This document shows, piece by piece, positions 10,850 through 64,000 of a DNA stretch of 64,000 nucleotides. Location: contig JAQMWT010000576.1 of NCBI GenBank assembly GCA_029834535.1, positions 1 to 64,000 of the forward strand. The letters run 5' to 3'. The DNA comes from Chrysophaeum taylorii (Eukaryota > Sar > Pelagophyceae > Pelagomonadales > Pelagomonadaceae). The position numbers were made by a program, and so were the translations under genes. The stretch's first letter is position 1; the number at the start of each line of letters is the position of its first letter. The notes under the pieces were generated by a model that saw only the letters and a list, made by a program, of their open reading frames with translations, searched no databases and was not told where the DNA came from.

Positions 10850-10891
10850 AGAATAGGGTGTACTAACCCTAATTCAAATTTTCTATCTCTA
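10850..10891 (-). repeat. First 42 bp of a main-family copia LTR, inverted
   Basis: The minus strand reads TAGAGATAGAAAATTTGAAT and onward, the start of the copia LTR. It lies back to back with the complete plus-strand LTR, and its outer edge abuts gypsy integrase sequence. It looks like the remnant of a second copia that once entered the gypsy element. Confidence 0.65.
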
Positions 10892-10893
10892 GG

Positions 10894-11625: not shown

Positions 11626-11879
11626 AACATCGTTGTCAGCCTCGTATAGTACTGGTGATTGCCCGTCTTGATCTTTCTGCTCCGAGTTGAGGTTTTTCCG
11701 GATTCGCTTGCCAGTTTCGTCTCAAGTCTGCTCTTTCGCTATCTCCTCGAGAGTGACTTCATTTTCAGCTTGATCTGCAAAAGGGAGACGTTCGACGGGG
11801 TCAGCTGGTTCAGCTTCGTACGCAAATTGAGGCAGCTGCACGTTTTGGCGCGTACTAACTGCTGCCATTGCTGCGGTAG

Positions 11880-17194: not shown

Positions 17195-17392
17195 TAGAGA
17201 ACAGTAATTTCAACTGTGTTGCCCTTCAGCAGAGTGAGAGCAGTGGTAGTCTGCCCTCGTCCTGTGCTATAACAACGAGGACAGCACGGTGTGAATAACA
17301 CAGCGGTTTTTTGAATTAAAAGTGAGCTCGAAGCAAGAGAGCTAACCGTAGGATAGGGGGGTACTAACCCTAAATTAAATTTTCTATCTCTA
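17195..17392 (-). repeat. 3' LTR of main copia copy 1
   Basis: 198 bp, starting TAGAGATAG and ending CTGTTCTCTA on the minus strand, alignable with the LTRs at 10654, 33654, 43621 and 60662. It is preceded by the conserved GAGGGCG run at the element's 3' end, a possible polypurine-type primer. Confidence 0.85.
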
Positions 17393-17449
17393 CGCCCTCA
17401 CAGATTGAACTCGGTGAGCGAAATCTGGATCAAACTAAGCAGGAAGCGA

Positions 17450-19130
17450 CTTTCCATCGACAAGTATGTGGAGAGTGTTCTGGACGGAATTGTACGGTGG
17501 AAGAGTAGCGGAAATAGCAACTTGATGAGATGGTGGTGAAGGCGAGGTGGAATGAACACCGTAGGCGTTCTTGAACTTGTGGAATAAATTGCGGGAAAGA
17601 AGTTTCGAAAAATGATCAGCGATCTGGTAGTGAGTAGGACACCAGAGGGGACGGATGACCGAGTTGGCCTGGTAGTCACGAATGCGAAATTCTCGTAAAT
17701 TGATATGACGAGAGGGAGCACGGACTTTAGGGTGATTAGCGACATGTAAGGCGCTAGCGTTGTCAATAAGCAGGGGAATAGCGTGAGCTTGATCACGCGA
17801 AAACAGATAAGGGTGAGAGGAGAAGATCTTATGAAACCATTGGCATTCATCAGCGGCTGCGCTAGCGGCGATGAGTTCGGCTTCCATGGTGCTTTTGGCA
17901 GTAAGAGTTTGGCGTTTGCTAGACCAGAATACGAGATTGCCAAATACGAAAATACATGCACCAGAATGAGATCTTAAGCGAGGGTCAGAACGGTCAGCGA
18001 AACTGGCATCAGTAAAACAAATAATGGGCGAACGAAGATGATGCAGTTCTGGATATGTGCCGATCAGATGCTGAATAAAGGGCGTAATAGAGGGGCTGTC
18101 GGATGAATAGTCGAGAGAATCATTCGGAGTACCCTTCAAATAGCGAAGTAAAACATACAAATGTAGAAGATGGGTCTGCTCAGGGTTGTGCATGCCTTTG
18201 CAGCATTTGTTGCACAGAGTGGTGATGTCTGGACGACAAGTGACAGACAAGTAAATACTAGTGCCACAGTAATGGGGAAAATGCTTGCGTAAAATTTCTA
18301 AGGTAGGAGCCAAGTCGGAAAGAAGCTTAGCAGAAGGTTTCTGAGTGAGAATGTCCGAGTAGGGGACGTCAGTAGTACGGAGGTTGATTTTATGCTCGGC
18401 GAGCATCTTGTTTATCTTCGCGGCTACATTCATAGTGAGGTGACCAGCGGAGACATTGTAGTGTACATCGATACCAAGAAAGGATCGGATGTTATCGTGC
18501 CATGTACCTTTGCCATATTCCTTCTCCAAAGCGGTGCGAAGAGATGTGATTTTGGCGGTGTTGGTACCAGTGATCAAGAGATCATCGACTGAGACGGATA
18601 GCTCATGTTGTCGAAGAAACGAGTCGAATTTAATGTTCCACAACAAAGCTGACTGTTTGAGACCATAGAGAGCCTTGACGAGTCGGAGAGCTAGCTTGGA
18701 CTCTGGGTGGTTCTTCTGTATCTGCTGGACAAGGTTTTGCGAGACACGAATCCCTCGAGGTAAGTCTATCCATACCGGGCGATCAAGTGCCGATTGGATG
18801 AATGCCTGGGGAATGTCTGCGTGCGCGACCGGGAGCCTGAGCTTCACAGCGATGGCGAGCAATAACCGGTTGGTGGCGAGCATCGCGGTCGGTGAAGATG
18901 TGGCATAAAAGTCAATGCCGACACGTGCCAAGAAACCTCGGGCAACTAGACGAGCTTTATAGCGGTCTGGGGTGCCGTCAGCAAAATACTTGATCTTCAG
19001 CGCGAGTTCCGTCGATATAGACGAACGGTCTGGCGGTAAAGGTTCAAGCTTAAAGACGCCGCTGGAGCAAAAGCCTTCAATTTCCTTGCGAATCTAAGCA
19101 ATACGCTTAAGCTTATCTTCTTCGCCGAGT
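17450..19130 (-). CDS. Copia reverse transcriptase and RNase H region, copy 1
   Basis: Landmarks on the minus strand: KARLVARGF just upstream, FYATSSPTAM, HADIPQAFIQSALDRPVWI, LVKALYGLKQS, the catalytic VSVDDLLITG, and in RNase H, FTDASFADRSD and KSTMEAELIAASAAADE. These are standard copia RT-RH motifs in the standard order. The enzyme would copy the element's RNA into DNA. Highly similar sequence is found at 41.85-43.56 kb and, for the last part, at 10.1-10.6 kb. Confidence 0.88.
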
Positions 19131-19799
19131 TCTTTGAGTTCGACAATCTTTTCAGGCTCATATACAACGTCATCCGCAGTCACGAGTTGTAACACGACAT
19201 GGTCGATGTGCTGCAAGTCATAGTCCATGACTTCTTGGATAATGTCTTGATTCGGATCACTTTGACTTATGAAGAGGTGTCCGAGTTCGCCAGAATCATG
19301 CATGAAGGCGTGTCTGTGACGAGAAGCTAGGTGGTAGTGCTGATGCGCTGAGATGTCCCATAAGAGAGAGGAACTCATACAACAGAATTCTTGGTTCCAT
19401 TGACGCGCATAGTACTCTGCCGGTGACAATTCGTCATGGCATACATAGTTCTCGAGAACAGAATTGTCGTTGTCCAGGTGGTCGACCAAGACAGACGAGT
19501 GGTACGGCTTCCTTGGGAAGTCAACGTACAAGAGTTCTGCGTCGGTTTCTCTCTGCAGATCCAGTGCAGTGCCGCCCATGATACCATAGTCTTGAGTGGT
19601 ATTTGCGAGGAGGCATCCTGTCGGAACATCATCTGGCGGCTTAGCGTCCCTTCTAATGTTGAGATCAGATGCGATGCTGGCGGCATGGCCCTGGTGCAGA
19701 GCGCTGACACTGATGAGAAACATCAATGTGCTGGACATGTTGGCTGTGGCGCGAGCCGTGGGTTGCTCCTGCTGGTATTTCCAGTTGCGACCATACTCT

Positions 19800-21268
19800 G
19801 ATGCGATGATGCGTCTGGTGAAAAGTTGTCCATCGTCGACACGTTTCACGATATAGAGTTGATCTTTGGGAATGCGGAATCCGCGCTCGTCCTTGAGATC
19901 TGCCTTGAGTTTGTCACTCTGGTTGCGATGCACGAGGACTGGAGTAAAACCTGAATCATCGAGAACAACCTCTAGGCGATCCTTTCGCTTGGGCATCGGA
20001 ATGCTACCGTCCGGCGGAGGTGGCCGGTTGAGGAACGAAAAATCCTGTTCAGGTGTCTCGTCGCTGACGGGACTTGGATCAGTAGCAGAGGTCGGATCTG
20101 GTTCTTTATGTTCGTCGTCATCATCGGGTTCATCATCCTGGTCGTTATCATGAGTCTCGCCCTCATTTTGCGATTCCTGTCTAATTTCCGGCATTGGCTG
20201 CTCGCTTATAGCTGGGAGCGGGTCCTCTTGCCGTGCCTCTGCTGGGATCTGTGCGTGTGCTTTGATCCGTTCGATCTCCTTGTTGCGGTTGACTGGCATG
20301 TCTGCATCAACGTGGAAGTCGTTCGAGGTGACGATTTTTCCATATCGCCCTTGATGTACAAGCAGGATAGAGCTGTGAACATCACGGATAAATCGGTCCG
20401 TGCCGGGGAGGTTCGGGAGATAGTTGTTACTGTGGAAGTAAGAGGCGGAGACGCTGGAGGGTTCCAGTTTGTGACTTTGAGGATAGACAAAGGTGACAGG
20501 TTCGCCAAAGGGGAGGAGCTTCAGGAGTGGTGCCGTGGGTGACATGATGCGCCGGGGAACGGTGCAGGTCATGTTATTGCGCGAGGGCAGTCCATGAGAG
20601 CGCTGATTGTCTGCTTGGATCTTGTGCAGTAGAGCAAACGGGTGGTAATACTCGGCGCCAATAGGCTTTCCTTCGATGCGGACGCTGCGCAGGTTAAGGA
20701 GGCGAACGACGGTGCCTCGAGTGTTTTCCTTAAGGATGTTTCCCGCGAAGTTCCGCTGGTGTAGGTGGCGACCAATGATTTGAAACTGGATACCGAGCTG
20801 CACCTTGAGCGGGTGGAAAGCTTCGGAGCGGAATGTGGAAAAAGCATCAGATGAGATGATTTTCACACTTACATCCAATTCGACCTTACTCACGTTGACC
20901 ACGTAGAGGATGCCAGCCAGAACGTCCTGAGCGTCTAGTTTCCGCAGGAAATAGACCCACTTGTGTGCTGAGATAATACACACGAAATGCATGATGTAAC
21001 GAAAGCCACCATAGCATTTGCTGATGCCCGGGTATGAGACATCCATGTGGAGATGTTGGCCAGGAGCATAGGCCAGTTCATCCTGTGACCTGGAAGAGTT
21101 CTGATGTCGGAAGCTAACATGCGGTTGACAGCGCTTGCATTCGCAGCAGTCTTGCAGATACCGATCATCACCTGGGCGGAGATTCGTAACATTGGCGGCA
21201 ATTGTGCGGCGAAGAATCTCGGGTTGTTGGTGGTGTATGCGGTGCCAGCGAGTGACCAAAGCCCTCAT
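19800..21268 (-). CDS. Copia integrase region, copy 1
   Basis: The frame begins near a HHCC zinc-binding module (HRIHHQQ, then CECKRC), followed by the catalytic core with the first Asp in LHMDVSYPG and the second in IISSDAFSTF; the position of the Glu is less certain, around HQRNFAGNI. A long acidic linker (Glu/Asp/Pro-rich) follows the core before RT, as in many copia polyproteins. The enzyme would insert cDNA. The same block is present in copy 2, where a retroposon has inserted in it. Confidence 0.8.
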
Positions 21269-21624
21269 TTCGCGTGCTGAATAGTGCCGGGCTTGTGCAA
21301 GGGGGGCAGAGCGGCAGTCGAAGCGCTGGGGGGGGTGGGTCGCTTGTCAACTCGGACTTTAGCAACTGTGGCCTCGGCGAGTAGCGTCTCGAGGTTTTTC
21401 GATTTGCTTGGTTTGCGGATCGCATCATGGCGAGCATCTGCTACGGCATTGAAAAGGGAGGTGAGGTTGAGGTCCACCTCTGCTAAGGGACGGTTGGAGA
21501 TGTTCAAGAAGAATTCTGCAACCTGGTGGATGTCTCCGGGGCTGGGAATGCCATTGCGCATGGTTGCCCATTCGATGTGAATGTTCACGTGGTGATGCGA
21601 TTCGTGGAGTGCCGAGGACAGCGC

Positions 21625-23270
21625 TGTACTTAGCCTGCAGCATGTTGTGCGGGACGGCGTTGGCCAGCGCCTTAAACGCGAAGTACGGCGGATGCTCTTG
21701 GAACAAGCGGAGCAGTTCCGGGTCCGATTGGTGTCCAAACTTTGCGATTTCGTTGAGAGTCGCGTATCGGATGTGGTCGGGAGAGATCAGCAGTAATGCG
21801 TTGGAGTAGCTCGTGTTGGTTGGGTACGAGCCAGTGACCGAGTAGCACTTTGTGGATTTCTGGAGCGTGTCGCCGATGTGGCCGACGTAGTCCGCGTAAG
21901 TGGGACGTGCTTCGGACATTATGAGTCCCGTGGGGTCATCGAGAGTAATTCGCCCTCGTGAATCGATCGCGGCAAAGCCGGGATGCGAGCGATTCATGTA
22001 GTGGACCCACGTGGAGGGGCGCGAGCAGCTGTGAGCGGCTGCCAAGGAGTTGGTGTAGGCGACGACCAGAAAGGCGGTGCCCTTGGGAACATCCAGGGAG
22101 AAGGTGTGCGTTGGGGAGAAGACTGCGGGTTGGTGTGAACAGTCCAATATCTGAGGGGGCCGTGAATGCAAGGTGAGGGATGCGCGCGGGAAGTAGCCAC
22201 ATGCGACGGCGGTGGCGGCAGTGCCGGTGATGGCTCCATCTAAATGGTAAGCACATTGAGACTCTGAGGCGTGAAAGCAGCGGAGTGTGTTCCAGGCGGC
22301 GAGAGTAGGGTGTTGCGACAAATGGTTGTGCAGCAATGTAAATACCAAGAGATGTGAGATATTGGTCATCGAGGCATAGGGGGTGCCGTCGGCGTCTAGT
22401 CCTAGATCCGTGAAGGGCTTCTTCAAGCGCGCAAGCATTTGGCAGATGCGTGCATTCTCGGAAATCGAGAGTTTAGCTGCGTTGGCGGATGCGTATGATA
22501 ATGTGGCTTTGTTCTGGTAGTAGTCCAGGGTGGAGCGGGTCACTGTACCATGAAGGGCGGGGTTTGCTATCCAGAGATCGTCGGGGATAGTGTGACTTGG
22601 GTCCAGGAGGGGAAGCATGCTCGGAGGGGATATGAACCAGGGAGACGCGGTTTTCTCGAGGTTGTAGCCGGTGAGCGGGTGTCGGGCAAAGACAGCGAGG
22701 TGGCGGTTCTTGCTTGTGACGTCACCAAAAGCGGAGGCATTGTATTGTAGACACCGGGGTGTCTGAAGTAACCCATGCGCTGATAGCATTTGGCGAGCTG
22801 GGTGTACTCGTGGTGAGTTCGGGGGTTTGGGGGTACATTCTCGACAATGGTGTATGTCGGGAGCGTGCAACGAACAAAGCGAATCTGTTCTTTGACGAAA
22901 AGGTCGGCGGTCACCGGAGTGGCATAGCCGTCATAGTCTTTCATTACGCTCAGATGTTGACAAGGCAATGTGAAGACAGCCAGGTCAAGTTGAGGTAGTC
23001 GTATTTTGCCGGTTTGTAGAGCGGCAGTGAGCTTTCTTAGATCCGCATAGTGCGGAGCGTGCGGGAAAAGTTGCTGCGCGCGGGCGCGCATAATAGGGTT
23101 GATTTCACAGGTGACCACGACAGTGATGCGCTTGTCGAAGCGTTTGCGAAAAGAGTCAAAGCCTTCTTGGTGGAGTCCACCTGCAATAATGGCTGTGTGT
23201 AGCGGAGGGGGTTGTGCTTGCACAGAGAGGTCCGCTGAGCCAGTGAATGCATATTGGACGACAGTACGCG
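21625..23270 (-). CDS. C5 cytosine DNA methyltransferase domain carried by copia copy 1
   Basis: Domain between protease and integrase. Motif I-like: AIIAGGLHQEGFDSF (near 23,190). Motif II-like: VTCEINPIMRARAQQLFP. Motif IV with the catalytic Cys: LPCQHLSV (PCQ at 22957-22965). Motif VI: YTIVENVPPNP (ENV at 22834-22842). Motif VIII-like: SAFGDVTSKNRHLAV. After a stretch of about 300 residues that should include the target-recognition part come a motif IX-like segment, RYATLNEIAKFG, and motif X, ANAVPHNM (near 21,660). This order is that of enzymes that methylate carbon 5 of cytosine in DNA. Motif I lacks the usual FxGxGG form, so it is divergent and activity is not certain. Retrotransposons with captured DNA methyltransferases have, as I recall, been reported in charophytes and dinoflagellates. 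Confidence 0.78.
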
Positions 23271-23779
23271 GCAGGCTGATTAATTCCGTCAGGAATATAG
23301 AATGATGCTGTAATTTGGCGAAATCGAGGAGATGGGATTGCGAGCGCGTCTTTGCGACGTTCTGCGTTATGTGTGCAAGCTCATCCTTGAGGGACATTTT
23401 CGTTCCGGTGTGGAAACTAATCACAGCGCGGAATGTTTGCTTTGGATGGGATGGCAGGGACAAGAGACCATTAGTTTGGCGATTGGCGAGAACTACTGCG
23501 GTTGTGCCTATAAGCGTTTTGTAATCATGAGGATCTGAAGTGGAAGTGGTCAGAAGTTCATACAAGTATGGTTCGTGCGGCAGCGGTGGGTCTGTTGCCT
23601 GGACGTTCAGAGCTTTCAGTTGAGAGGTCGCTATAACCTGTAAACCTGGTCTGAAGTGCGGGACGACCAAAAAGACTAAGTATAATACGTAGCCTGTGGA
23701 GTCTTTGATATCCTTTGAGGAGAGACCTGCAGCCTGCAAATACAGCGGTTTGACACCGATGAAGTGGCTGGTTAAGGTG

Positions 23780-23930
23780 CCTCTGCCCATGCGGATGGTA
23801 TGTTCGGGAATCCTGCGTATGGACTCGGGAACAAAATGTTGGATTGTGCGAGTGAAGCAAAATGATGCGCCACCGTCAATTAAAGAAACTTCAGTGCCGG
23901 GTCCATTGCATCCGTGCAGCGAGTTAGTCT
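23780..23930 (-). CDS. Protease region of copia copy 1
   Basis: The frame has SLIDGGASFCFTR, which fits the copia protease active site D-(S/T/G)-G-A-(S/T), about 70 residues into the frame that leads into the methyltransferase domain. Following strands (IRMGRGTLTS, LYLVFLVVP) fit a retropepsin fold. The same motif is at 63.3 kb in copy 3 and near 35.95 kb in copy 2. The residue after the catalytic Asp is Gly rather than Ser or Thr, which is unusual. Confidence 0.6.
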
Positions 23931-24080
23931 TTGTGGGGGCCTTTCCTGTAGTGTAAGTGGCACAAAGAAATTCTGCGACTCTGGGGGAAAGTGTTGATGA
24001 TGTCGGGAAGTTCTTCATCGTGAGGCTTGGTGCCTGATTTAGTAAAGTTTGGTTGGCGGCACAGGCGTCGTCGGCAACCA

Positions 24081-25805
24081 TCATCGAAAAAGCTGGCTCT
24101 TGTGTAGAGCACGCATGTAGTCGCTGTGACGTTGTGCGTAGTCTTCGGCGGAGTCGTCTTCATCGTCTATTTCGGGGATGTTATCGTCGTAGAGGCCTAG
24201 CTGTCCGTGATCATCATAAAAACCGAGGTGGCCTTGGTCATCTGCGTCGTCGGCTGCGCCCTCATCGGGTGGATCATCCTGGGGATCGGATGATAGCACC
24301 TGAAGAAACTCGGCGGCGTCGGAATCAGCCTCGGAGAGGAGTATCTCATCGGAGATAGTGGTGATGAGGTTGATGAGCTTGGTCATGCGCTCTGAGTTGG
24401 AGGTGTGTTGGCGACCGGCTTGACTAAGGTTCCGGATGGTCTGGAGCTTGCGACGAACATCACGGAGGGGGACCTTAAACCGTTGGTCAGGAGTGGATGG
24501 CTTTGGGGGATGCGTTTGAGTGGGAAAGGTGACCTTGCGGAGGTGCGGGTGCTCGCGTTTGTCTGGGGTGACAGGAGAAGCACGGGGTTGTGTTTGCAGG
24601 TTGGGGTGACAGCAGCGGACTTGGCAACGGGTAAAGCAAGGGCTGGAGCATATAGGACAAGCGCGGTCCCGGAGGTAGCTGACATAGCGGCCGGCCGTGT
24701 GGCGCAGGAAGCGGCGGATTATTGCCAGGGATCGACGAGCACGTAATCGCTTCCAGGCTCGAAATTGGTGCTGAAGAAGGGCCGCTACGTAGTGGAGTGG
24801 CGGGCCAGGAGTCTGGCGCAAGGCCGCGACGCGGTTCTGCCGGGCAGCACGTGCTTGAGCGTGTTGAGCGCGGGTGCGTATAACGCGGGCGACATCCGGA
24901 TGTGCAGAGTTGGTGCATGCGCGTGAAGGCGAGGCAGATAGCGGCGGCTGAGGGGTAGGTGACGGGCCCGAGGGTGGCGAGGAATTTGGCGTGGGTGTGG
25001 CAGACGCCGGGGAAGTAATGGTGGCAGTGGGTGTGACGGACTGTGTGGGCGTAGCAGGTGAGCGACGGGCACGGAGGTGCTGCCGAGCGCGAACAAAGCG
25101 CTGAAGACGGAGCGCGGCGGTGTGACGTGGCTGACCAGGAGCGCGGCGCAGGGTCGCAACGAGGTTCTGTCGGGCAGCACGTGCAAGAGTATGCTGAGCG
25201 CGACTTCGGGCAGCACGAGCGGTGGACGAGAAAGTAGAGTGCGGGGCAGGGGTCGGAGGCAGAGCCGGTTGTGGTGGCGGAGGGGGAGTTGACGAGCTCT
25301 GGGTCGCGGAGGCGGGCGGCGAGTGAGCCGGTGTGGCCGCAGCAGACGACGGAGGGCTGTCGGTAGGGAGAGCTCCCTGGGGTTGAGTCCGCGCGCGAAA
25401 CTTGCGCTGGAGAAGACCTACAGCGTGGTGGCCGTGGCGCCGAGCTGCGACGAGGCTCAGCCGGGCTGCACGCGCCTGGGCGTGTAGATGTTGGGTGCGT
25501 GCAGCGCGGGCGACCGCTGGCAAAGTGGGATGGGTGCAGGCTCGAGCACGATTGGTAGGCAAGGCGTGGAGACGCGGTAGGGGGGCGTGCGAGGAGCCAG
25601 GAGCCTCGACAGAGGGCGAAGGCGTTGGCGTGGGTGCGGGAGATGGCGGAGAGATGTCAGGGGCAGCGGTGTGCGCGGGAACCGGTGGCGAAGGATGGTC
25701 GACCTCAAGGTCCATGTCCATGCCTGTGGTAAGAAGGTGTGTGCCAGACGAGGGGAGGTTCTCGGCGGCAATGTGGGTGGACATGAAGGACGGTTCGAGG
25801 TCCAT
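24081..25805 (-). CDS. Chimeric 574-codon frame: IQ-like repeat protein joined to copia gag
   Basis: One open frame. Residues 1-403 have no counterpart in the gag of copies 2 and 3. They contain three repeats (about 86-140, 196-248 and 295-358), each with Ala/Arg-rich helix followed by an IQ-like motif: LLQRKFRAR, LQRFVRARQHLRAR, LLQHQFRAWKRLRAR. IQ motifs bind calmodulin-type proteins. Pro/Ser/Thr-rich linkers separate the repeats. A Cys cluster follows (residues 383-399, C-x2-C-x3-C-x3-C-x3-CC). From about residue 404 the frame is copia gag (PRASPVTPDKREHPHLRK and onward). The fusion may be a captured host sequence, an alternative gag N-terminus or a chance recombination. The first part is GC-rich and low in complexity, so its coding status is not proved. 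Confidence 0.5.
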   Translation of the reverse strand: MDLEPSFMSTHIAAENLPSSGTHLLTTGMDMDLEVDHPSPPVPAHTAAPDISPPSPAPTPTPSPSVEAPGSSHAPLPRLHALPTNRARACTHPTLPAVARAARTQHLHAQARAARLSLVAARRHGHHAVGLLQRKFRARTQPQGALPTDSPPSSAAATPAHSPPASATQSSSTPPPPPQPALPPTPAPHSTFSSTARAARSRAQHTLARAARQNLVATLRRAPGQPRHTAALRLQRFVRARQHLRARRSPATPTQSVTPTATITSPASATPTPNSSPPSGPSPTPQPPLSASPSRACTNSAHPDVARVIRTRAQHAQARAARQNRVAALRQTPGPPLHYVAALLQHQFRAWKRLRARRSLAIIRRFLRHTAGRYVSYLRDRACPICSSPCFTRCQVRCCHPNLQTQPRASPVTPDKREHPHLRKVTFPTQTHPPKPSTPDQRFKVPLRDVRRKLQTIRNLSQAGRQHTSNSERMTKLINLITTISDEILLSEADSDAAEFLQVLSSDPQDDPPDEGAADDADDQGHLGFYDDHGQLGLYDDNIPEIDDEDDSAEDYAQRHSDYMRALHKSQLFR

Positions 25806-33653: not shown

Positions 33654-33848
33654 TCGAGATATAAATTTTGATTTAGGGTTAGTACCCCCCTATCCTAGGG
33701 TTAGCTCTCTTACGTAAGCACATTTTGATTTAAGAACACGCTGTGTTATTCACACCGGCTGTCCTCGTTATAGGAGACAAATACGAGGGCAGACTACCAG
33801 TGCTCTCACTCTGCTGAAGGGTAACACAGTGCAAATTACTGTTCTCTA
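33654..33848 (+). repeat. 5' LTR of copia copy 2
   Basis: 195 bp, start TCGAGATATAAA, end CTGTTCTCTA. It contains the family's TTAGGGTTAGTACCCCC block. Directly after it comes TTGGGCACCAGTCCCGG, shared with copy 3 and in altered form with the LARD, a probable primer-binding site whose tRNA I could not identify. Confidence 0.85.
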
Positions 33849-33933
33849 GATGTTGGGCACCAGTCCCGGTATCAGCAGAGTCCCTGGATTTCCAGAAGAG
33901 TTCCGCTCCCTGACGTTCCTGAACCAAAACAAG

Positions 33934-35235
33934 ATGCCAACCAATCAAGAACTCCAAAAGGAGATAAAAGAACAAGAAGCTCGCTTAGAGGCAAAGCATC
34001 AAAGGGAGATGCAAGCACAAGCTCAAGCAAACGACGCTCGCTTCCAAGCACTCGAAGCGCGATTTAACGCCATGCAGACACCACCTGCCGTCGCTGCTGC
34101 GACTGCTCCCCCCACTCCAGCTCAACAAGACCCCAAGCACAAGGCTAACACCTTTAGTGACCCACCTAGCGCCGTCCTCAAGTCAATGGACTCCGCTCAA
34201 GTCACACCCCAAATGCTCTCGTTTCGCGTTATGCAGTTGTTCGTCGAACATCTGATGCCTGAAACAGGCATAACGCAATACTTCTTGCAGGGCTTCTACA
34301 CGTGGGAATCCGTCTTACGCGGATCTAATGATCTAGCTGACGCTCTTCTCAGCCACTGCATCAAGGAATATGACAAGGACCCCGACAACCACGCTACCGC
34401 TGGGAACACGCACGATTTCCATGGCCGTTGCGTGTACTACAAGGGCGTTTACCGCAAGTTTGGCGAGCACTTCCTGGAAAACGTCTACGAGCCTAAGCTC
34501 CAAGAACATAAAGACCAAGACCAGGACACGATCGATACGACGAAAGGAAAATTATATCCGATCACTCAACCTCACCTCCAAGGAAAACAAGCCGACTTCA
34601 CCGTGTACCTCCGCGAGACCGTGCACCCCCTTTTTCGCCGTTTCCTGCATGCCGGTAGCGACTCCGTCGAGCACCCAGCATACGACGAAATCGATGCACT
34701 CGGATCCTCCCATCCGATCGGACTCGAATTTGTGCTCCAGGTCCGCCTCGCACTTGACAAGCACACGGGCCAGAACCACGTCCACCATGCGCATTATGTT
34801 TATAATGCCTTCCTGGACACACCGTTCAACCCTGAGATCCACGAGCCTGCGCATTATATCGATTATATGCGCCACGTTCAGCAACAGCTTCGCCAAATCA
34901 CCAACGATGCCTCTCTCCAACTTCCCGATGACAAGATCCTCAAGGAAATCCATCAAATGCTGCGGTTCAAGTACCCTCCGAGCTTGCTTGACTCCCGCGC
35001 CCCAACCCACATCAAGGGCTTCGCGCGTCTTGCCAACTGTCTGCGCACCCCCAGCGACTCGCTGTTACTCGACGAAGACAAAGAAGCGATAAATCATCTT
35101 CCCAAGTTGATCGCCCGCATCACGGTTATCTTTGATCGCCCGCATCACGGTTATCTCCACCTTCGAGCGCAACTTTTGGGCTCACCTCAAGCCTCATCCA
35201 ATGCCGAACTTCAAGCCGTTGCGATTCGTCTCTGA
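33934..35235 (+). CDS. gag, copia copy 2
   Basis: The likely start is the ATG at 33,934 (MPTNQELQKEIKEQEARLEA), since an upstream in-frame ATG at 33,850 overlaps the primer site. Residues 1-45 form a charged coiled coil. The following 350 residues are an alpha-helical capsid-like region (TGITQYFLQGFYTWESVLRG, HPIGLEFVLQVRLALDKH, HQMLRFKYPPSLLDSRAPTH). No CCHC knuckle is visible. It matches copy 3 closely, with many silent differences. Role in particle formation is inferred from position. Confidence 0.7.
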   Translation: MPTNQELQKEIKEQEARLEAKHQREMQAQAQANDARFQALEARFNAMQTPPAVAAATAPPTPAQQDPKHKANTFSDPPSAVLKSMDSAQVTPQMLSFRVMQLFVEHLMPETGITQYFLQGFYTWESVLRGSNDLADALLSHCIKEYDKDPDNHATAGNTHDFHGRCVYYKGVYRKFGEHFLENVYEPKLQEHKDQDQDTIDTTKGKLYPITQPHLQGKQADFTVYLRETVHPLFRRFLHAGSDSVEHPAYDEIDALGSSHPIGLEFVLQVRLALDKHTGQNHVHHAHYVYNAFLDTPFNPEIHEPAHYIDYMRHVQQQLRQITNDASLQLPDDKILKEIHQMLRFKYPPSLLDSRAPTHIKGFARLANCLRTPSDSLLLDEDKEAINHLPKLIARITVIFDRPHHGYLHLRAQLLGSPQASSNAELQAVAIRL

Positions 35236-36236
35236 CTTTGGTCGTCTGCCGACCAAGGACAAAGATAATCCACGTTTTCGCTCCCGCCATCATGGCCTCC
35301 ACTTCACCGAAGATGATGATGACACCTCACCCTCTGAAGATGAAATTCCTCCAGATCCTGATGAAGCCTCCCCCGAAAACGACGCAGTTGCAATGTTTCT
35401 CACGGAAGCCAACCTCGATCAAGATGAGGACACCGATCTCATCCAACACCTACACGCCTACCGAAAGAAACAAATGTCCCGCCACCAGAAGAAGACCCCC
35501 CCGAAAAAGCCGCCAAATCCTCGCTCCCCGTCGTACTACGATATCAATGACAGCCCTAATCCCAAGGTCACCCCTGTCACCCCAACCAAGAACAAACACA
35601 ACCCCCGTGCTTTTCCTGTCACCCCAGACAAACGCGAGCACCCGCACCTTCGTAAGGTCACTTTTCCCACTCAAACGCATCCACCACAGCCATATACTCC
35701 TGACCAACGATTCATGGTCCCCCTTCGTGATGTTCGTCGCAAGCTCCAAACCATACGGAACCTGAGTCCACCACCGCCAACCACACATTATCAAATCTGG
35801 CACCAAGCCTCACGACGACGAATTTCCCGACCACATCAACCCTCTCCCCCAGAGTCGCAGATTTTCTTTGTGCCACTTACGCTTCAGGAAAGACCCCCAC
35901 AAAGACTAACTCGATACACGGATGCAATGGACCCGGCACGGAAATTTCTCTAATTGCGGTGGCGCATCATTTTGCTTCACTCGCACAATCCAACATTTTG
36001 TTCCCGAGTCCATACGCCGGATTCCCGAACACACCATTCGAATGGGCAGAGGCACCTTAACCAGCCACTTCATCGGTGTCAAACCGTTGTATTTGCAGGC
36101 CGCAGGTCTCTCCACAGGTTACGTCTTATACCTCGTCTTTCTGGTCGTCCCGAAATTCAGACCAGGTCTACAGGTTATAGCGACATCTCAGCTGAAAGCT
36201 CTGAACGTCCAAGCAACAGACCCGCCGCTGCCGCAC

Positions 36237-36604
36237 TAACTAACTAACTAACTTCAGACCTCTCCCGAGCATGGGAGCCAGGCCGGACCGACAGGAGCCA
36301 GTCCGGAATCACGGGCCTGTAGACGAGGGGCGCCGAAAGGTGGGTCGCCGGAGAGTGATCATCAAGCTTGTCGCCATGCGACGAGGAGACCGCGATGTGA
36401 CTGACAACCAACTCGTCGATAACCTTCCGTCTGCGCCCCCCGGCCATACCCCGTCCCACTGCGAACGTTCCGGCTGCCAACCGGCCCGCCCGAGAGGCGA
36501 ATAGGTGCCAACCTACGCCGGGAGGGCGGATGCCCTCGCAAGGCTCAGGATTCATGAGGCACCGTCCTCCATCGCAACCATGCGGTCGGCGATCAGGGTA
36601 TGAA
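36237..36604 (-). mobile_element. (GTTA)n-tailed retroposon, copy B
   Basis: Inverted relative of copy A over its whole length, inserted in copia copy 2. The tail is four or more TAAC units on the plus strand at 36237. GCAC lies on both sides (36233-36236 and 36605-36608), a short possible target duplication. The uninterrupted copia sequence at the same place is seen in copy 3. Confidence 0.7.
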
Positions 36605-36989
36605 GCACGAACCATACTTATATGAGCTTCTGAAAACGTCCACCTCAGATCCCCACGATTATAAGACGCTTCTAGGCAAAACCGCATTAGTTCTCGCCAA
36701 TCGCCAAACTAATGGTCTATTGTCCCTGCCATCCCATCCAGAGCAAACATTCCGCGCTGTGCTTAGTTTTCACACCAGTACGAGAATGTCCCTCAAGGGT
36801 GAGCTCGCACACACCACGCAGAACGTCGCAAAGACACGTTCGCAATCCCACATGTTAGATTTTGCAAAATTACAGAATCATTCCATATTTTTGACGTAAC
36901 TCATCTGCCTACCGCGCACTGTCGTCCAATATGCATTCACTGGCTCAGCGGACCTCTCTGTGCAAGCACAACCCCCTCCGCTAAACACA

Positions 36990-38520
36990 GCCATTATTGC
37001 AGGTGGACTCCACCAAGAAGGCTTTGACTCTTTTCGCAAACGCTTCGACAAACGCATTACTGTCGTGGTCACCTGTGAAATCAACCCTATTATGCCCGCG
37101 CGCAACAACTCTTCCCGCACGCTCAGCATTATGCGGAACTAAGAAAGCTCGCTGCGGCTATGCAAACCGGCAAAATACGACTATCACCTTGCCGTGTCAA
37201 CATCTGAGTGTAATGAAAGAATATGACGGCTATGCCACTCCGTTGACCGCCGACCTTTTCGTCAAAGAACAAATCCGCTTTGTTCGTTGCGCACTCCCGA
37301 CATACACCATGGTCGAGAATATACCCCCCAACCCCAGAACTCATCACGAGTACACTGAACTCGCCAAATGCTATCAGCGCGTCGGTTACTTCCGACACTC
37401 CGGTGTCTACAATGCCTCCGCTTTTGGTGACGTCATAAGCAAGAACCGCTACCTCGCTGTCTATGCCCGACACCCGCTCACCGACTACAACCTCGAGAAA
37501 ACCGCTTCTCCTTGGTTAATATCTCCTCCGAGCATGGTTCCCCTACTGGACCCCAGTCACACTATCCCCGACGATCTCTGGATCGCCAACCCCGCCCTTC
37601 GTGGCTCAGTGACCCGCTCCACCTTGGACTATTACCCGAGCAAGGCCACTTTCTCCTACAAACCCGCCAACGCCTCGAAACTCTCGATTTCCGAGAATGC
37701 ACGTATCTGCCAAATGCTCGCACGCCTGAAGAAGCCCTTCACGGATGTAGGACTCGACGCCGACGGCACCCCTTATGCCTCGATGGCTAATATCGCCCAT
37801 CTCTTGGCATTCACATTGCTGCACGATCACTTGTCGCAACATCCTCCTCTCGCCGCCTGGTACTCACTCCGCTGTTTTCATGCCACAGAGTATAATGTGC
37901 TTACCATTTGGATGGAGCCATCACCGGCACTGTCGCTACTGCCGTCGCACGTGGCTACTTCCCGCGCGCCTCTCTCACCCTACATTCAAGGCTCCCTCTG
38001 ATATTGGACTGTTCCCACCAACCCGCAGTCTTCTCCCCCACGCACACCTTTTCCTTGGATGTTCCCAAGGGCACCGCCTTTCTGGTCGTCGCCTATACCA
38101 ACTCCTTGGCAGCCGCTCACAGCTGCTCGCGCCACTCCACGTGGGTCCACTACATGAATCGCTCGCATCCCGGCTTTGCCACGATCGATTCACAAGGGCG
38201 AATCACACTCGATGACCCCACGGGACTCATAATGTCCAAGCACGTCCCACTTACGCGAACTATGTCGGCCACATCGGAGACACGCTCCAGAAAAGCACCA
38301 AGTGCTACTCGGCCACTGGCTCGTACCCAACCAACACGAGCTACTCCAACGCACTACTGCTGATCTCGCCCGACCACATCCGATATGCGACTCTCAATGA
38401 AATCGCAAAGTTCGGACACCACTCGGACCCGGAACTGCTCCGCCTGTTCCAACAGCACCCGCCGTACTTCGCGTTCAAGGCACTGGCCAACGCCGTCCCG
38501 CACAACATGCTGCAGGCCAA
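36990..38520 (+). CDS. C5 cytosine DNA methyltransferase domain, copia copy 2
   Basis: Same domain as in copy 1 at the same place in the element. Motif I-like IIAGGLHQEGFDSF begins at about 36,993. The PCQ of motif IV is at 37192-37200 (LPCQHLSVMKEYDG). The motif VI position is near 37,315, and the motif VIII-like SAFGDVISKNRYLAV follows. The motif X-like ANAVPHNM is at about 38,483. The long segment between motifs VIII and IX is conserved with copy 1 in both length and sequence. This copy is a fossil with a few interruptions. Its presence shows the domain belongs to the family and is not a one-off insertion in copy 1. Confidence 0.75.
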
Positions 38521-38949
38521 GTACAGCGCTGTCCTCGCACTCCACGAATCGCATCACCATGTGAACCTTCACATCGAATGGGCAACCATACGCAATGGCA
38601 TCCCAGCCCCGGAGACATCAACCAGGTTGCCGAATTCTTCTCGAACATCTCCAGCCGTCTCTTAGCAGAGGAGGACCTCAACCTGACCTCCCTCTTCAAT
38701 GCCGTAGCAGATGCTCACCATGCTGCGATCCGCAAGACAAGCAAATCGAAAAACCTCGAGACGCTACTTGCCGAGGCCACAGTTGCCAAAGTCCGAGTTG
38801 ACAAGCGACCCAGCCCCCCCAGCGCTTCGACTGCCGCTCTGCCCCCCTTGCACAAGCCCGGCACCATTCAGCACGCGAAAAGAGTGCTTTTGCTCGCTCG
38901 CTGGCCACACACACCACCAGCAACCAGAGATTCTTCGCTGCACGATTGC

Positions 38950-40120
38950 CGCCAATGTAACGAATCTCCGCAAGGTGATGATCGGTATCTGCAAGACTGC
39001 AGCGAATGCAAGCGCTGTCAACCGCATGTTAGCTTCAGTCATCGGAACTCTTCCTGGTCACAGGATGAACTGGCCTACGCCCCTGGTCAACATCTCCACA
39101 TGGATGTCTCCTACCCCAGCATCAACAAATGCTATGGTGGATTCCGATACATCATGCATTTCGTGTGTGTTTTTTCGGCACACAAATGGGTATACTAACT
39201 AACTAACTAACTTCAGACCTCTCCCGAGCATGGGAGCCAGGACGGACCGACAGGTGCCAGTCCGGAATCACGGGCCTGTAGACGAGGAGCGCCGAAAGGT
39301 CGGTCGGCGGAGAGTGACCATCAAGCTTGTCGCCATGCGACGAGGAGACCGCGATGTGACTGACAACCAACTCGTCGATAACCTTCCGTCTTCGCCCCCC
39401 GGCCATACCCCGTCCCACTGCGAACGTTTCGGCTGCCAACCGGCCCGCCCGGGAGGGTATACTTCCTAAGGAAACTAGACGCGCAGGAAGTTCTGGCCGG
39501 CATCCTCTACATGGTCAATGTGATTAAGGTCGAATTCGATGTAAGTGTAAAAATCATCTCGTCTGATGCCTTTTCCACCTTCCGCTCCGAAGCTTTCCAC
39601 CCGCTCAAGGTGCAACTCGGTATCCAGTCCACTGCAGCGAATGCAAGCGCTGTCAATCGCATGTCAGCTTTCGTCACAAGAACACTTCCTGGTCACAGGA
39701 TGAACTAGCCTATGCTCCTGGCCAACATCGCCACATGGATGTCTCATACCCGAGCAGCCGCAAATGCTATGGTGGCTTTCGTTACATCATGCATCTTGTG
39801 TGTGTTATTTCGGCACACGAATGGGTATACTTCCTGCGGAAACTGGACGCGCAGGACGTTCTGGCCGGCATCATCTACGTGGCCAATGTGATTAAGGTCG
39901 AATTCGATGTAAGTGTGAAAATCATCTCGTCTGATGCCTTTTCCACCTTCCGCTCCGAAGCTTTCCACCCGCTCAAGGTGCAACTCGGTATCCAGTTTCA
40001 AATCATTGGTCGCCACCTACACCAGCGGAACTTCGTGGAAAACATCATTAAGGAAAACACACGAGGCACTGTAGTCCGCCTCCTTGACCTTCGCAGTGTC
40101 CGCATCGAAGGAAAGCGTAT
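38950..40120 (+). CDS. Copia integrase region, copy 2
   Basis: Contains the CSECKRCQPH zinc module end, the first catalytic Asp in LHMDVSYPS and the second in IISSDAFSTF, matching copy 1. A GTTA-tailed retroposon interrupts it, and some of the core is present twice. A fossil. Confidence 0.75.
39196..39454 (-). mobile_element. (GTTA)n-tailed retroposon, copy C
   Basis: About 259 bp, 5'-truncated relative to copies A and B, with a TAAC tail at its left edge. An 8-bp target duplication, GGGTATAC, is visible at 39188-39195 and 39455-39462. It sits in the integrase region of copia copy 2. Confidence 0.8.
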
Positions 40121-41849
40121 TGCCGCCGAGTATTATCACCCGTATGCTCTGCTGCATAAGATTCAAGCAGACAATCAGCGCTCTCATGGACTGCCCTCGC
40201 GCACCAACATGACCTACACCGTCCCCCGTCGCATCATGTCAGCTATGGCACCGCTCCTGAAGCTCCTTCCCTTTGGCGAACCTGTCACCTTTGTCTATCC
40301 TCAAAGTCACAAACTGGAACCCTCCAGCGTCTCCGCCACTTGCTTTCATAGCAACAACTACCTCCCCAACCTCCCCGGCACGGACCGATTTATCCGGGAT
40401 GTTCATAGCTCTATCCTGCTTGTACATCAGGGGCGATATGGAAAAATCGTCACCTCGAACGACTTCCACGTTGATGCAGACATGCCAGTCAACCGCAGCA
40501 AGGAGATCGAACGGATCAAAGCACTCACGCAGATCCCAACAGAGGCACGGCAAGAGGACCCGCTCTCAGCTATAAGCGAACAGCAAATGCCGGAAATTAG
40601 ACAGGAATCGCAAAATGAGGGCGAGACTCATGATGACGACCAGGATGATAAACCCGACGATGACGACGAACATAAAGAACCGGATCCAACCTCTGCTGCT
40701 GATCCAAGTCCCGTCAGCGACGAGACACCTGAACAGGATTTTTCGTTCCTCAACAGGCCACCTCCGCCGGACGGTAGCATTCCGATGCCCAAGCGAAAGG
40801 ATCGCCTAGAGGTTGTTCTCGATGATTCAGGTTTTACTCCAGTCCTCGTGCATCGCAACCAGAGTGATCAACTTTTTCGTTCCTCAACCGGCCACCTCCG
40901 CCGGACGGTCGCATTCCGATGCCCAAGCGAAAGGATCGCCTATAGGTTGTTCTCGATGATTCTGGTTTTACTCCAGTCCTCGTGCATCGCAACCAGCGTG
41001 ATAAACTCAAGGCAGATCTCAAGGACGATCGCGGATTCCGCATTCCCAAGGACCAACTCTATATCGTGAAACGTGTCGACGATGGGAAACTTTTCACCAT
41101 ACGCATTATCGCTTCAGAGTATGGTCGCAACTGGAAATACCAGCAGGAGCAACCCACGGCTCGCGCCACAGCCAACATGTCCAGCACATTGATGTTCCTC
41201 ATCAGTGTCAGCGCTCTGCACCAGGGCCATGCCGTCAGCATCGCTTCTGATCTCAACATTAGAAGGGACTCGCTTCTGATCTCAACATTAGAAGGGATGC
41301 TAAGCCGCCATATGATGTCCCGAAAGGATGTCTCCTAGCAAATACCACCCAAGACTATGGTATCATGGGCGGCACTGCACTGGATCTGCAGAGAGAAACC
41401 GACGCAGCACTCTTGTACGTTGACTTCCCAAGGAAGGCGCACCACCCATCTGTATTGGTCGACCACCTGGACAACGACAATTCTGTTCTCGAGAAGTATG
41501 TGTGCCACGACGAACTGTCACCGGCAGAATACTATGCGCGTCAATGGAACCAATAATTCTGTTGTATGAGCTCCTCTCTCTTGTGGGACATCTCAGCGCA
41601 TCAGCACTACCACCTAGCTTCTCGTCACAGACATGCCTTCATGCACGATTCTGGCGAACTCGGACACCTCTTTCTAAGTCAAAGTGATCCTAACCAAGAC
41701 ATTCTCCAATAAGTCATGGACTATGACTTGCAGCACATCGACCATGTCGTGTTACAACTCGCGACTGCTGCAGATGTTGTCTATGAACCTGAAAGACTGT
41801 AGAACTCAAAGGACTCAGCGAAGAAGACAAGTTTGAGCATATCGCTTCG

Positions 41850-43560
41850 ATTCGCAAGGAAATTGAAGGCTTGTGCTCCAACGGCGTCTTTAAGCTTGAA
41901 CCTTTACCGCCAAACCGTTCGTCTATCTTGACGAAACTCGTGCTGAAGGTCAAGTATTTTGCCGACGGCAACCCAGACCGCTATAAAGCTCGCCTAGTTG
42001 CCCGAGGTCTCTTGGCACGTGTCGGCATTGACTTTTATGCCACATCCTCACCGACCGCGATGCTCGCCACCAACCGGTTATTGCTCGCCATCGCTGTGAA
42101 GCACAGGCCCCCGGTCACGCACGCAGACATTCCCCAGGCATTCATCCAATCGCACTCGATCGCCCGGTATGGATAGACTTACCTCGAGGAATACGTGTCT
42201 CGCACAACCTTATCCAGCAGATACAGAAAAACCACCCAGAGTCCAAGTTGGCTCTCCGACTCGTCAAGGCTCTCTATGGTCTCAAACAGTCATCTTTGTC
42301 GTGGAACATTAAGCTCGACTCGTTTCTTCGACAACATGAGTTCGAACGCTCACAAGTCGATACTTGCCTCTATATCAGTTCGGATCGATCTATCAACAGA
42401 TGGGCTCTCCTATCCGTCTCTGTCGATGATCTACTGATCACTGGTACCAACACCGCCAAAATCACGTCTCTTCGCACCGCTTTGGAGAAGGAATATGGCA
42501 AAGGTACTTGGCACGATAACATTCGATCCTTTCTTGGTATCGATGTACACTACAACGTCTCCGCTGGTCACCTCACTATGGATGTAGCCGCGAAGATAAA
42601 CAAGGTGCTCGCCGAGCATAAACTCAACCTCCGTACTACTGACGTCCCCCGCTCGGACATTCTCACTCAAAAACCTTCTGCTAAGCTTCTCTCCGACTTG
42701 GCCCCCACTTTAGAAATATTACGCAAGCATTTTCCTCACTACTGTGGCGCTAGTATTTACTTGTCTGTCACATGTCGCCCAGATATCACCACTCTGTGCA
42801 ACAACTGCTTCAAAGGCATGCACAATCCTGAGCAGACCCACCCTCTCCACTTATATGTTTTACTTCGCTATTTGAAGGGTACTCCGAATGATTCTCTCGA
42901 CTATTCGTCCGACAGCCCCTATATTACGCCTTTTATTCAGCATCTGATCGGCAGCTATCCAGAATTGCATCACCTTCGTTCGCCCATTATTTGTTTTACT
43001 GATGCCAGTTTCCCTGCCGTTCCGACCCTCGCTTAAGATCTCATTCTGGTGCATGTATTTTCGTATTTTGGCAATCTCGTATTCTGGTCTAGCAAACGCC
43101 AAACTCTTACTGCCAAAAGCACCATGGAAGCCGAACTCATCGCCACTAGCGCCGCCGCTGATGAAGATGTCAATGGTTTCACGAGATCTTCTAATTTCAC
43201 CCTTATCTGTTTTCACGTGATCAAGCTCACGCTATTCCCCTGCTTGTTGATAACGCTAGCACACTACATGTCGCTAATCACCCTAAAGTCAGTGCTCTCT
43301 CTCGTCATATCAATTTACGAGAATTTCGCATTCGTGACTACCAGGCCAACTCGGCCATTCGTCCTCTCTGGTGTCCCACTCACTACCAGGTAGCCGATCA
43401 TTTTTCCAAGCTTCTTCCCCGCAATTTATTCCACAAGTTCGAGAACGCCTACGGTGTTAACTCTACATCTTCTTCACCACCATATCATCAAGTTGCTCTA
43501 TCTGCTACTCTTCCACCGTACGACTCCGTCCAGAACACTCTCTATATTCTCGTCGATGGA
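41850..43560 (+). CDS. Copia reverse transcriptase and RNase H region, copy 2
   Basis: Landmarks: PDRYKARLVARG, FYATSSPTAML, HADIPQAFIQS, VKALYGLKQS, the catalytic VSVDDLLITG, then in RNase H CFTDASF and KSTMEAELIA. Order and sequence match copy 1 (17.45-19.13 kb). A fossil with several interruptions. Confidence 0.8.
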
Positions 43561-43620
43561 AAGTCACTTCCTGCTTAGCTTGATCCAGATTTCGCTCGCC
43601 GAGTTCAATCTGTGAGGGCG

Positions 43621-43815
43621 TAGAGATAGAAAATTTAATTTAGGGTAAGTATCCCCCTATTCTAGGGTTAGCTCTCTTACTTTAGCACTTTTTGATTTAA
43701 GAAAACGCTGTGTTATTCTCACCGGCTGTCCTCGTTATAGGAGACAGATACGAGGGCAGACTACCACTGCTCTCACTCTGCGGAAGGGTAGCACAGTACA
43801 AATTACTGTTCTCTA
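43621..43815 (+). repeat. 3' LTR of copia copy 2
   Basis: Starts TAGAGATAGAAAA after the conserved TGTGAGGGCG, ends CTGTTCTCTA. About 8% different from the 5' LTR. The following bases return to the gypsy-like remnant; TCACG is found within one base of both outer ends and may be the target duplication. Confidence 0.85.
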
Positions 43816-60656: not shown

Positions 60657-60661
60657 AAGGG

Positions 60662-60857
60662 AGGAGATACAAATTTTGACTTAGGGTTAGTACCCCCTAT
60701 CCTAGGGTTGGCTCTCTTACCTTTAGCACCTATTAATTCAGAAAAACGCTGTGTTATTCACACCGTGCTGTCCTCGTTGTTGGAGCACAGGACGAGGGCA
60801 GACTACCACTGCTCTCACTCTGCTGAAGGGTAACACAGTTGAAATTACTGTTCTCTA
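60662..60857 (+). repeat. 5' LTR of copia copy 3
   Basis: 196 bp, start AGGAGATACAAATTTT, end CTGTTCTCTA. Alignable over its full length with the other main-family LTRs. Its outer edge cuts gypsy RT sequence. Confidence 0.85.
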
Positions 60858-60942
60858 GGTATTGGGCACCAGTCCCGGTATCAGCAGAGTACCAGGATTT
60901 CCAGTCGAGTTCCGCTCCCTGACGTTCCTGAACCAAAACAAG

Positions 60943-63096: not shown

Positions 63097-63109
63097 TGGT
63101 TGCCGACGA

Positions 63110-64000
63110 CGCCTATGCCGCCAACCAAAATTTGCTAAATCAGGCACCAAGCCTCACGATGCCGAACTTCCCGACATCATCACAAATTCCCCCCAGAGTC
63201 GCTGACTTTCTTTGTGCCACTTACACTACACGAAAGGCCCCCACCAAGACTAACTCGCTGCACGGATGCAATGGACCCGGCACGGAAGTTTCTTTAATTG
63301 ACGGTGGCGCATCATTTTGCTTCACTCGCACAATCCAACATTTTGTTCCCGAGTCCATACGCAGGATCCCCGAACATACCATCCGCATGGGCAGAGGCAC
63401 CTTAACCAGCCACTTCATCGGTGTCAAACCGTTGTATTTGCGGGCTGCAGGTCTCTCATCAAATGATATTAAAGACGCCACAGGCTACGTATTATACTTA
63501 GTTTTCTTGGTCGTCCCGCACTTCAGACCAGGTTTGCAGGTTATAGCGACCTCTCAACCGAAAGCTCTGAATGTCCAGGCAACAGATCCCCCTCTGCCAC
63601 ACGAACCATACCTGTATGAACCTCTGACCACCTCCACTTCAGATCCTCACGATTACAAAATGCTTCTAGGCCAAACCGCAGTAGTTCTCGCCAATCGCCA
63701 AACTAATGGTCTCTTGTCCCTGCCATCCCTTCCAAAGCAAACATCCCGCGCTGTGTTTAGTTTCCACACCGGAACGAAAATGTCCCTCAAGGATGAGCCT
63801 GCACACATAACGCAGAACGTCGCAAAGACGCGCTCGCAGTCCCATCTCCTCGATTTCGCCAAACTACAGCATCATTCTATATTCCTGACAGAATTAATCA
63901 GACTGCCGCGTACTGTCGTCCAATATGCATTCACTGGCTCAGCGGACCTCTCTGTGCAAGCACAACCCCCTCCGCTACAAACAGCCATTATTGCAGGTGG
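63110..64000 (+). CDS. Protease and start of methyltransferase region, copia copy 3
   Basis: Contains the protease active-site motif VSLIDGGASFCFTR near 63.3 kb, the strands after it, and a linker ending QPPPLQTAIIAGG at the window edge, which is the start of the methyltransferase motif I-like segment. So copy 3 very probably carries the same methyltransferase, but this lies outside the window. Confidence 0.65.

Follow-up and report, generated by a model that had tools for sequence, protein, structure and literature searches.

A C5 cytosine methyltransferase domain in a Copia Pol protein

The first 64,000 nucleotides of contig JAQMWT010000576.1 from the alga Chrysophaeum taylorii (assembly GCA_029834535.1; here called the window) hold copies of a Copia retrotransposon whose Pol carries, between protease and integrase, a domain that almost certainly belongs to the C5 cytosine methyltransferases (MTases). 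An earlier note, made from the sequence alone, had proposed such a domain in copy 1, and its position between protease and integrase is borne out by homology in Pfam, profile and fold comparisons. All the motifs read at that time are present on the minus strand and in the same order, namely the motif I-like AGGLHQEGF (23184-23158), motif II CEINP (23109-23095), motif IV LPCQHLS (22968-22948), motif VI IVENVPP (22848-22828), the motif VIII-like FGDVTSKNRHLAV (22729-22691) and motif X ANAVPHNM (21664-21641); a motif IX-like RYATLNE (21769-21749) can be added to them. The claim that copy 1 encodes the domain thus stands for motifs I to X but not for a domain in one piece: motifs VI and VIII are separated by a break of the reading frame near 22,740, and tblastn of a relative from elsewhere in the genome (L009) aligned to copy 1 in two frames (23250-22639 and 22825-21611).

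The Pfam profile PF00145 for C5 MTases, proposed in the earlier note as the check, matched a 505-residue piece of copy 1 with motifs I-VI at 23.2 bits (E 5.4e-5), above the Pfam cut-off of 22 bits. The piece with motifs VIII-X, scanned alone, gave no MTase match. The protease was identified by reading its motif, IDGGAS at 23880-23863; a Pfam scan of the frame 24084-22567 found no protease match. The assignment to Copia held as well, with an RVT_2 reverse transcriptase (RT) match at E 3.3e-21, an integrase placed downstream of the MTase and upstream of the RT, and long terminal repeats (LTRs) of 193 nt.

Copies of the element family elsewhere in the genome

The genome assembly (70.8 Mb in 697 contigs) contains at least 57 matches to PF00145, all over the cut-off, among the 123 of 474 candidates that were scored. 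We examined 29 further loci, which account for 30 of the 55 matches other than two host-like loci described below (L001 and L002). These loci were chosen by their PF00145 match, a choice that biases the sample toward conserved motifs and the MTase. By tblastn, the domain of the window family is encoded in all 29, and at nine of them it lies in one stop-free stretch (from residue 28 in L014, with gaps in L010 and L017). Scores against PF00145 at window-family loci reached 46.4 (L003), 38.6 (L004), 32.1 (L009) and 29.9 bits (L010).

L009 has a single open frame of 1952 codons with the protease motif (residue 80), the MTase (about 313-820), the integrase and the RT. Its rve match at 1016-1110 is weak (E 0.0061) and is followed by RVT_2 at 1686-1933 (E 1.6e-38); the frame stops after the RT and before RNase H, leaving an incomplete Pol. 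A second frame, of 1868 codons in L010, likewise joins PF00145 and RVT_2. Matches to RVT_2 in the genome number at least 150 (150 of 1670 candidates scored).

Related Copia elements carry a homologous segment

Among 7990 scored candidates, residues 970-1950 of the L009 frame, from integrase to RT, retrieved 24 proteins. The top five (P0003-P0007, from ENA records) are Copia Pol proteins with 35-43% identity over 29-35% of the query. In P0007, Pol_BBD and integrase flank a PF00145 match that spans positions 1-319 of 324 (E 9.8e-21). The corresponding segments of P0003-P0006 show TPC/WPC, ExT and Arg motifs and drew no Pfam MTase match. P0003, P0004 and P0005 are single frames of 3249, 2767 and 3300 residues with the MTase-like segment inside, and these frames seem to hold gag and Pol together.

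Two more Copia families of the window's genome, B (L044) and C (L045), show LCSG, PC, EMTPPH and RERW between protease and integrase; a Pfam scan of these families gave no MTase match. The RTs of 12 B- or C-type loci, sorted by eye, are 33-36% identical to that of the window family. There are at least 148 copies of the MTase-like segment of family B (148 of 1003 candidates scored) and at least 150 of that of family C (150 of 929). The P0004 segment found at least 113 matches in the genome (113 of 765 scored; 31-42% identity, best E 2.5e-28), mostly at family C coordinates. Because these matches reach at most 42% identity, the element of P0004 itself is not seen in this genome. The P0007 MTase gave no match there (four candidates scored), an empty result that is uninformative by itself. 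A search with its MTase region recovered no protein other than itself from 4128 candidates. Pattern scans for relatives in the viral_contigs and genome_contigs sets returned 80 and 33 pattern matches, none of them confirmed.

The inserted segment also shows in the spacing of Pol. From protease motif to integrase zinc finger we counted 860 residues in P0001 and 671 in P0007 versus 133-216 in four ordinary Copia rows, the distance being measurable in the 6 of 21 rows in which both patterns were found.

The domain matches C5 methyltransferases in profile and fold

The domain piece of L004 found nothing at E 1e-3 in a large protein set (7998 candidates scored), and the L009 domain, run by phmmer against PDB sequences, found nothing at E 1. 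The MTase of the window family thus escapes single-sequence searches and is picked up by profiles. Sequence and profile searches of solved structures listed HhaI, DNMT5, DNMT1 and DNMT2. The best named sequence matches were the DNA MTases HhaI and DNMT5, with DNMT2 appearing weakly for P0007 (0.003). No DNMT3 chain appeared among these matches up to E 1 with P0007 and profile A3 as queries; in the Foldseek lists DNMT3 is present and ranks below DNMT1. The top Foldseek rows are C5 MTases for the window piece and for the P0004 segment.

Profiles of B and C (L044, L045) compared directly with canonical MTases failed (N-terminal part 13%, E 0.002; C-terminal part 3%, 0.013), as did that of P0006 (E 0.58). 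B/C and P0006 are linked through P0003-P0005 (99.7%, 2.5e-25; 95.2%; 88.5%, 2.7e-6). Further weak comparisons were window family with P0007 (50%), B/C with P0007 (0.029) and the C-terminal part of B/C with P0006 (0.38).

MTase-bearing elements form one branch of the RT tree

An RT tree of 24 rows was built after five of 29 (win_copy1, P0017, P0022, P0025 and P0026) had been dropped as short or partial. The nine rows with an MTase (the window family twice, B, C and P0003-P0007) fall on one branch (support 100/98; 99% of 200 bootstrap trees). The absence of an MTase in the other 15 rows was taken from Pfam lists and, for four of them, also from the short distance between protease and integrase; three of these 15 rows (P0014, P0015 and P0018) have long branches. 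P0006 is closest to the window family (95/95), and in both a long segment separates motif VIII from motif IX.

In a tree of the N-terminal part of the MTase (18 rows) one branch (85/84) sets the nine Copia rows apart from the others, and a stronger one (100/99) groups P0007 and the references, with the remaining eight Copia rows opposite. A single capture of the MTase would be the simplest reading; alternatively, P0007 may represent a separate capture. We consider it probable that one Copia lineage has long carried the domain by inheritance, and that it is not a recent accident of copy 1. A fuller history can be offered tentatively: an ancestor of this lineage would have acquired a C5 MTase once, from a bacterial- or viral-type source rather than from DNMT3, and kept it in Pol while the RTs diverged to about 33-43% identity, in more than one host. 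The recognition region would have been enlarged and the active site would have drifted in some branches while Cys and Glu stayed, the elements marking their own nucleic acid with changed specificity or on a changed substrate.

The Cys of motif IV and the Glu of motif VI are conserved, and the domain is under purifying selection

The Pro-Cys of motif IV and the Glu of motif VI are present in 32 of 32 copies of the window family (loci chosen by PF00145, except window copies 1 and 2), in 9 of 9 copies of family C and in 4 of 4 of family B. By eye, the Cys and Glu are also found in P0003-P0007 and are thus kept in all eight MTase-bearing lineages examined. Within the window family the Glu of motif II (32/32), the first Gly of GGLHQEGF (30/30) and the first Arg of motif VIII (32/32) are invariant. 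Families B and C have both Arg residues of motif VIII; read by eye, so do P0003-P0005 and P0007, and P0006 has one.

We estimated ratios of nonsynonymous to synonymous substitution (dN/dS, Nei-Gojobori medians) at window-family loci preselected by PF00145, which favours the MTase in the comparison. The values were 0.133 for MTase motifs I-VIII (25 open copies), 0.174 for the long segment (13 copies) and 0.127 for motifs IX-X (19), next to 0.109 for the protease (11), 0.086 for the integrase (10) and 0.125 for the RT (4 copies, 6 pairs). Outside the window family, at loci chosen by likeness to L044 or L045 and without PF00145, dN/dS was 0.089 in B (4 copies, 6 pairs) and 0.235 in C (9 copies, 28 pairs, stop-free copies chosen). 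Together, profiles, fold searches and a dN/dS near 0.13, compared with 0.09 for the integrase, support a conserved MTase.

CpG content and the methylation genes of the host

The window family has an observed/expected CpG ratio of about 1.0; the ratio is 0.94 at B and C loci and 1.00 over the whole window, and at two host loci it is 1.26 and 1.46, above the elements. Pairwise comparison of six copies gave 7.2% CpG-to-T versus 5.2% CpH-to-T change on one strand, and 4.1% versus 4.05% on the other. Heavy CpG methylation of old copies finds no support in these values; mild, transient or non-CpG methylation may be compatible with them.

L001 and L002 are the two best PF00145 matches in the genome and read like host genes. 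L001 (G000:C634) reads like a DNMT2; its contig also bears a light-harvesting gene that matches antenna proteins of chlorophyll a/c algae and others, which points to an algal genome. L002 (G000:C621) is a C5 MTase gene with a frame of 2086 codons, in which TSC replaces PPC in motif IV. One match to the SRA domain was found in the genome.

A possible role in methylating element DNA, and alternatives

The account that we lean towards is that of a Ty1/copia-type LTR retrotransposon with a C5 MTase built into Pol between protease and integrase that methylates the element's complementary DNA (cDNA). Pol would be cleaved by its own protease, and the MTase would accompany integrase and RT in the particle and bind S-adenosylmethionine. 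C5 MTases usually act through a covalent adduct on a flipped cytosine; here the adduct would form by way of the motif IV Cys and the motif VI Glu. Cytosines of new element cDNA would be methylated before or during integration, and the methylated cDNA would then resemble host DNA or escape host factors; we infer that methylation would be protective. We hold it rather likely that the domain is catalytically active. That the element's cDNA is its main substrate is a more doubtful proposal.

Several observations weigh against this account. The structure models are of middling confidence (predicted local distance difference test, pLDDT, 61 and 57), and the fold matches have modest TM-scores, 0.48-0.60 of the query at ranks 1-27 for the window piece and 0.28-0.38 for P0004, with root-mean-square deviations of up to 16; METTL15 tied with DNMT1 in a second fold search of the window piece. 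Direct profile comparisons were weak between the window family and the B/C parts (E 0.38 for the N-terminal part, and 0.021), between the window family and P0006 (0.0084) and between P0006 and P0007 (0.53). In the window family motif I is degenerate and Leu replaces the second Arg of motif VIII in 31 of 32 copies; the Gln of motif IV is Ile, Thr or Val in related elements. Element copies give no strong signal of CpG decay as a sign of self-methylation, and the preselection of the dN/dS loci belongs here too.

The departures in motifs I, IV and VIII would suit a former MTase that was kept for structure or nucleic-acid binding, holding cDNA or RNA or positioning the integrase without methylating anything. 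The same holds for the long stretch that the window family and P0006 have between VIII and IX, for the lack of strong CpG decay and for a second element type in the window (described below) that retains weak similarity without PCQ and ENV. However, the Cys and Glu unchanged in eight lineages would be needless for a mere binding module, and P0007 matches the whole PF00145 profile; we regard the loss of enzyme function as unlikely, though worth serious weight.

An RNA C5 methyltransferase, using the fold in the manner of DNMT2 on element RNA or a tRNA primer instead of DNA, would fit the lack of a strong CpG mutation signature. An RNA substrate has been suggested for a LINE-borne DNMT that gave no DNA methylation in yeast, according to the accessible text of PMC5890265. 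The best named sequence matches are DNA MTases, which speaks against an RNA substrate here; this argument is not strong, as DNMT2 also stands high in the fold lists (rank 12 for the window piece, rank 3 for P0004), and we judge an RNA enzyme to be quite improbable.

Slightly less credible still is an MTase that acts in trans on the host genome, shaping host silencing, or that is tolerated because it restrains the element. Hundreds of copies in three families, counted as lower bounds, speak for it, and marks could be read or kept, since an SRA domain and two further, host-like C5 MTase loci are present in the genome; the absence of strong CpG depletion argues against it. Finally, an assembly chimera, contamination or chance motifs can be put aside as highly improbable, with nothing found in their favour: the same domain recurs in 29 of 29 further loci, the same arrangement is found in other records, and profile and fold matches are significant. 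Chance motifs in a gag-pol linker, in particular, are ruled out by the Pfam, profile and fold results.

Anatomy of the copies and other features of the window

Coordinates of copies 1 to 3 are collected in Table 1. The likeness of copy 1 to copy 3 on the gag side ends at about 24,587, and the stretch 24587-25805 (minus strand) holds a frame with several ARAAR...LQRxxRA-like repeats; because the match stops there, copy 1 is chimeric or truncated at about that point. In copy 2 the piece 36997-37998 scored 19.8 bits against PF00145, under the cut-off, and by eye no clear target-site duplication surrounds the copy. Copy 3 exits the window as motif I begins; a PF00145 match lies beyond, at contig position 64133-64501. 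The gag stop and the Pol start overlap as TGATG in copy 1 (about 24081-24084) and L009 (about 3597-3633), which suggests coupled termination-reinitiation or frameshifting between gag and pol.

Table 1. Positions of the retrotransposon copies and of their coding features in the window
Feature	Position	Strand	Basis or remark
C5-MTase-like domain of copy 1, motifs I to X	21625..23270	-	frame broken near 22,740
Catalytic Cys codon of motif IV (LPCQHLS), copy 1	22960..22962	-	sequence
Glu codon of motif VI (IVENVPP), copy 1	22840..22842	-	sequence
Open frame with Copia protease-like motif and MTase motifs I-VI	22567..24084	-	sequence, Pfam, structure model of 22744-23301
Open frame with motif VIII, long segment in place of target-recognition domain, motifs IX-X	21425..22870	-	sequence, tblastn
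Integrase frame, copy 1 (rve about 21070-20780)	19094..21268	-	PF00665 20.2 bits, E 7.5e-4, under Pfam cut-off 32.6
RT and RNase H frame, copy 1	17435..18931	-	PF07727 RVT_2 E 3.3e-21; RNase H by eye
3' LTR of copy 1	17195..17390	-	85% to copy 2 LTR
Frame upstream of Pol, copy 1	24081..25805	-	only part below about 24,587 matches copy 3 gag end
Copy 2, LTRs 33656-33848 and 43623-43815	33656..43815	+	LTR pair 193 nt, 91.7% alike
MTase domain of copy 2, several frames	36933..38569	+	tblastn
Copy 3: 5' LTR, gag, protease, MTase start; leaves window	60664..64000	+	contig continuation is L019

The second element type has long minus-strand frames, at 47752-50952 and 7185-9368, whose similarity to the window family's MTase region is weak. 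The two frames align to residues 357-748 of P0001 with 50.8 and 63.5 bits, the best of 200 window shuffles reaching 27.7. In 7185-9368 a Cys aligns at motif IV and the PCQ and ENV motifs are gone; Pfam finds nothing in this element type, which is perhaps a decayed or repurposed MTase relative. Elsewhere in the window, repeats at 26232-26819, 27343-27929 and 55868-57575 are spaced by about 1.1 kb, and a 17-19 bp unit (GACCAGGTGAACTTACTGG) forms short arrays near them and again at 55.5-58.1 kb. Gypsy-like remnants (RT_RNaseH, Integrase_H2C2 and rve) lie at 10840-12823 and 59405-60658, both on the minus strand.

Relation to known retrotransposon methyltransferases

The earlier note had pointed to a published report of such domains captured by retrotransposons in charophytes and dinoflagellates. 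DNMT-bearing retrotransposons have indeed been published for the dinoflagellate Symbiodinium (SymbioLINE-Dnmt and SymbioDIRS-Dnmt3) and for Klebsormidium nitens (KnitGypsy-Dnmt3), the backbones being long interspersed nuclear element (LINE), DIRS and Gypsy but not Copia (de Mendoza 2018; PMC5890265, accessible text). The same text describes the DIRS and Gypsy cases as DNMT3-type and the abundant Copia elements of Symbiodinium as free of any DNMT (PMC5890265). Searches of the literature outside subscription papers and preprints turned up no description of a Copia element with a C5 MTase, bar one phrase: a sentence in the available part of PMC12344493, with reference to the 2018 paper, mentions DNMT3 in 'LTR Copia and DIRS' elements, where the 2018 text itself says Gypsy. 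The accessible parts of PMC9998398, PMC6338049 and PMC12477816 describe none.

Judged by that 2018 text, KnitGypsy-Dnmt3 resembles the present element in being an LTR retrotransposon that encodes a C5 MTase as part of Pol, with catalytic residues and with purifying selection on the domain (its nonsynonymous to synonymous ratio, Ka/Ks, is < 0.2; PMC5890265); it differs in being Gypsy with a DNMT3-type enzyme, whereas ours is Copia and has no DNMT3 among its sequence and profile matches to solved structures. SymbioDIRS-Dnmt3 and SymbioLINE-Dnmt likewise combine a C5 MTase in retrotransposon coding regions with an algal host and high copy number, but on DIRS (tyrosine recombinase) and LINE backbones. 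DIRS elements with a Dam-like adenine MTase, as cited in the accessible part of PMC5890265, also pair a retroelement with a methyltransferase, though of the N6-adenine class and in another class of retroelement. Ordinary Ty1/copia elements (Pseudoviridae) share the order of protease, integrase and RVT_2 reverse transcriptase and the short LTRs, and lack the extra segment of about 500 residues, the MTase, between protease and integrase. The element described here is of the same kind as the 2018 cases, on another backbone and at the depth of a lineage, and is not a member of those families; its MTase apparently came from a source other than DNMT3, to judge by the sequence matches.

Copia is thus a fourth retroelement backbone to carry such an enzyme, next to the LINE, DIRS and Gypsy cases of 2018. 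The window's genome holds three such families, other records hold relatives, and the near-canonical P0007 enzyme is directly expressible. Cytosine methylation is a weapon of hosts against transposons. With an MTase conserved across a whole Copia lineage, and not an isolated capture, it becomes testable why a parasite carries the silencing enzyme of its victim.
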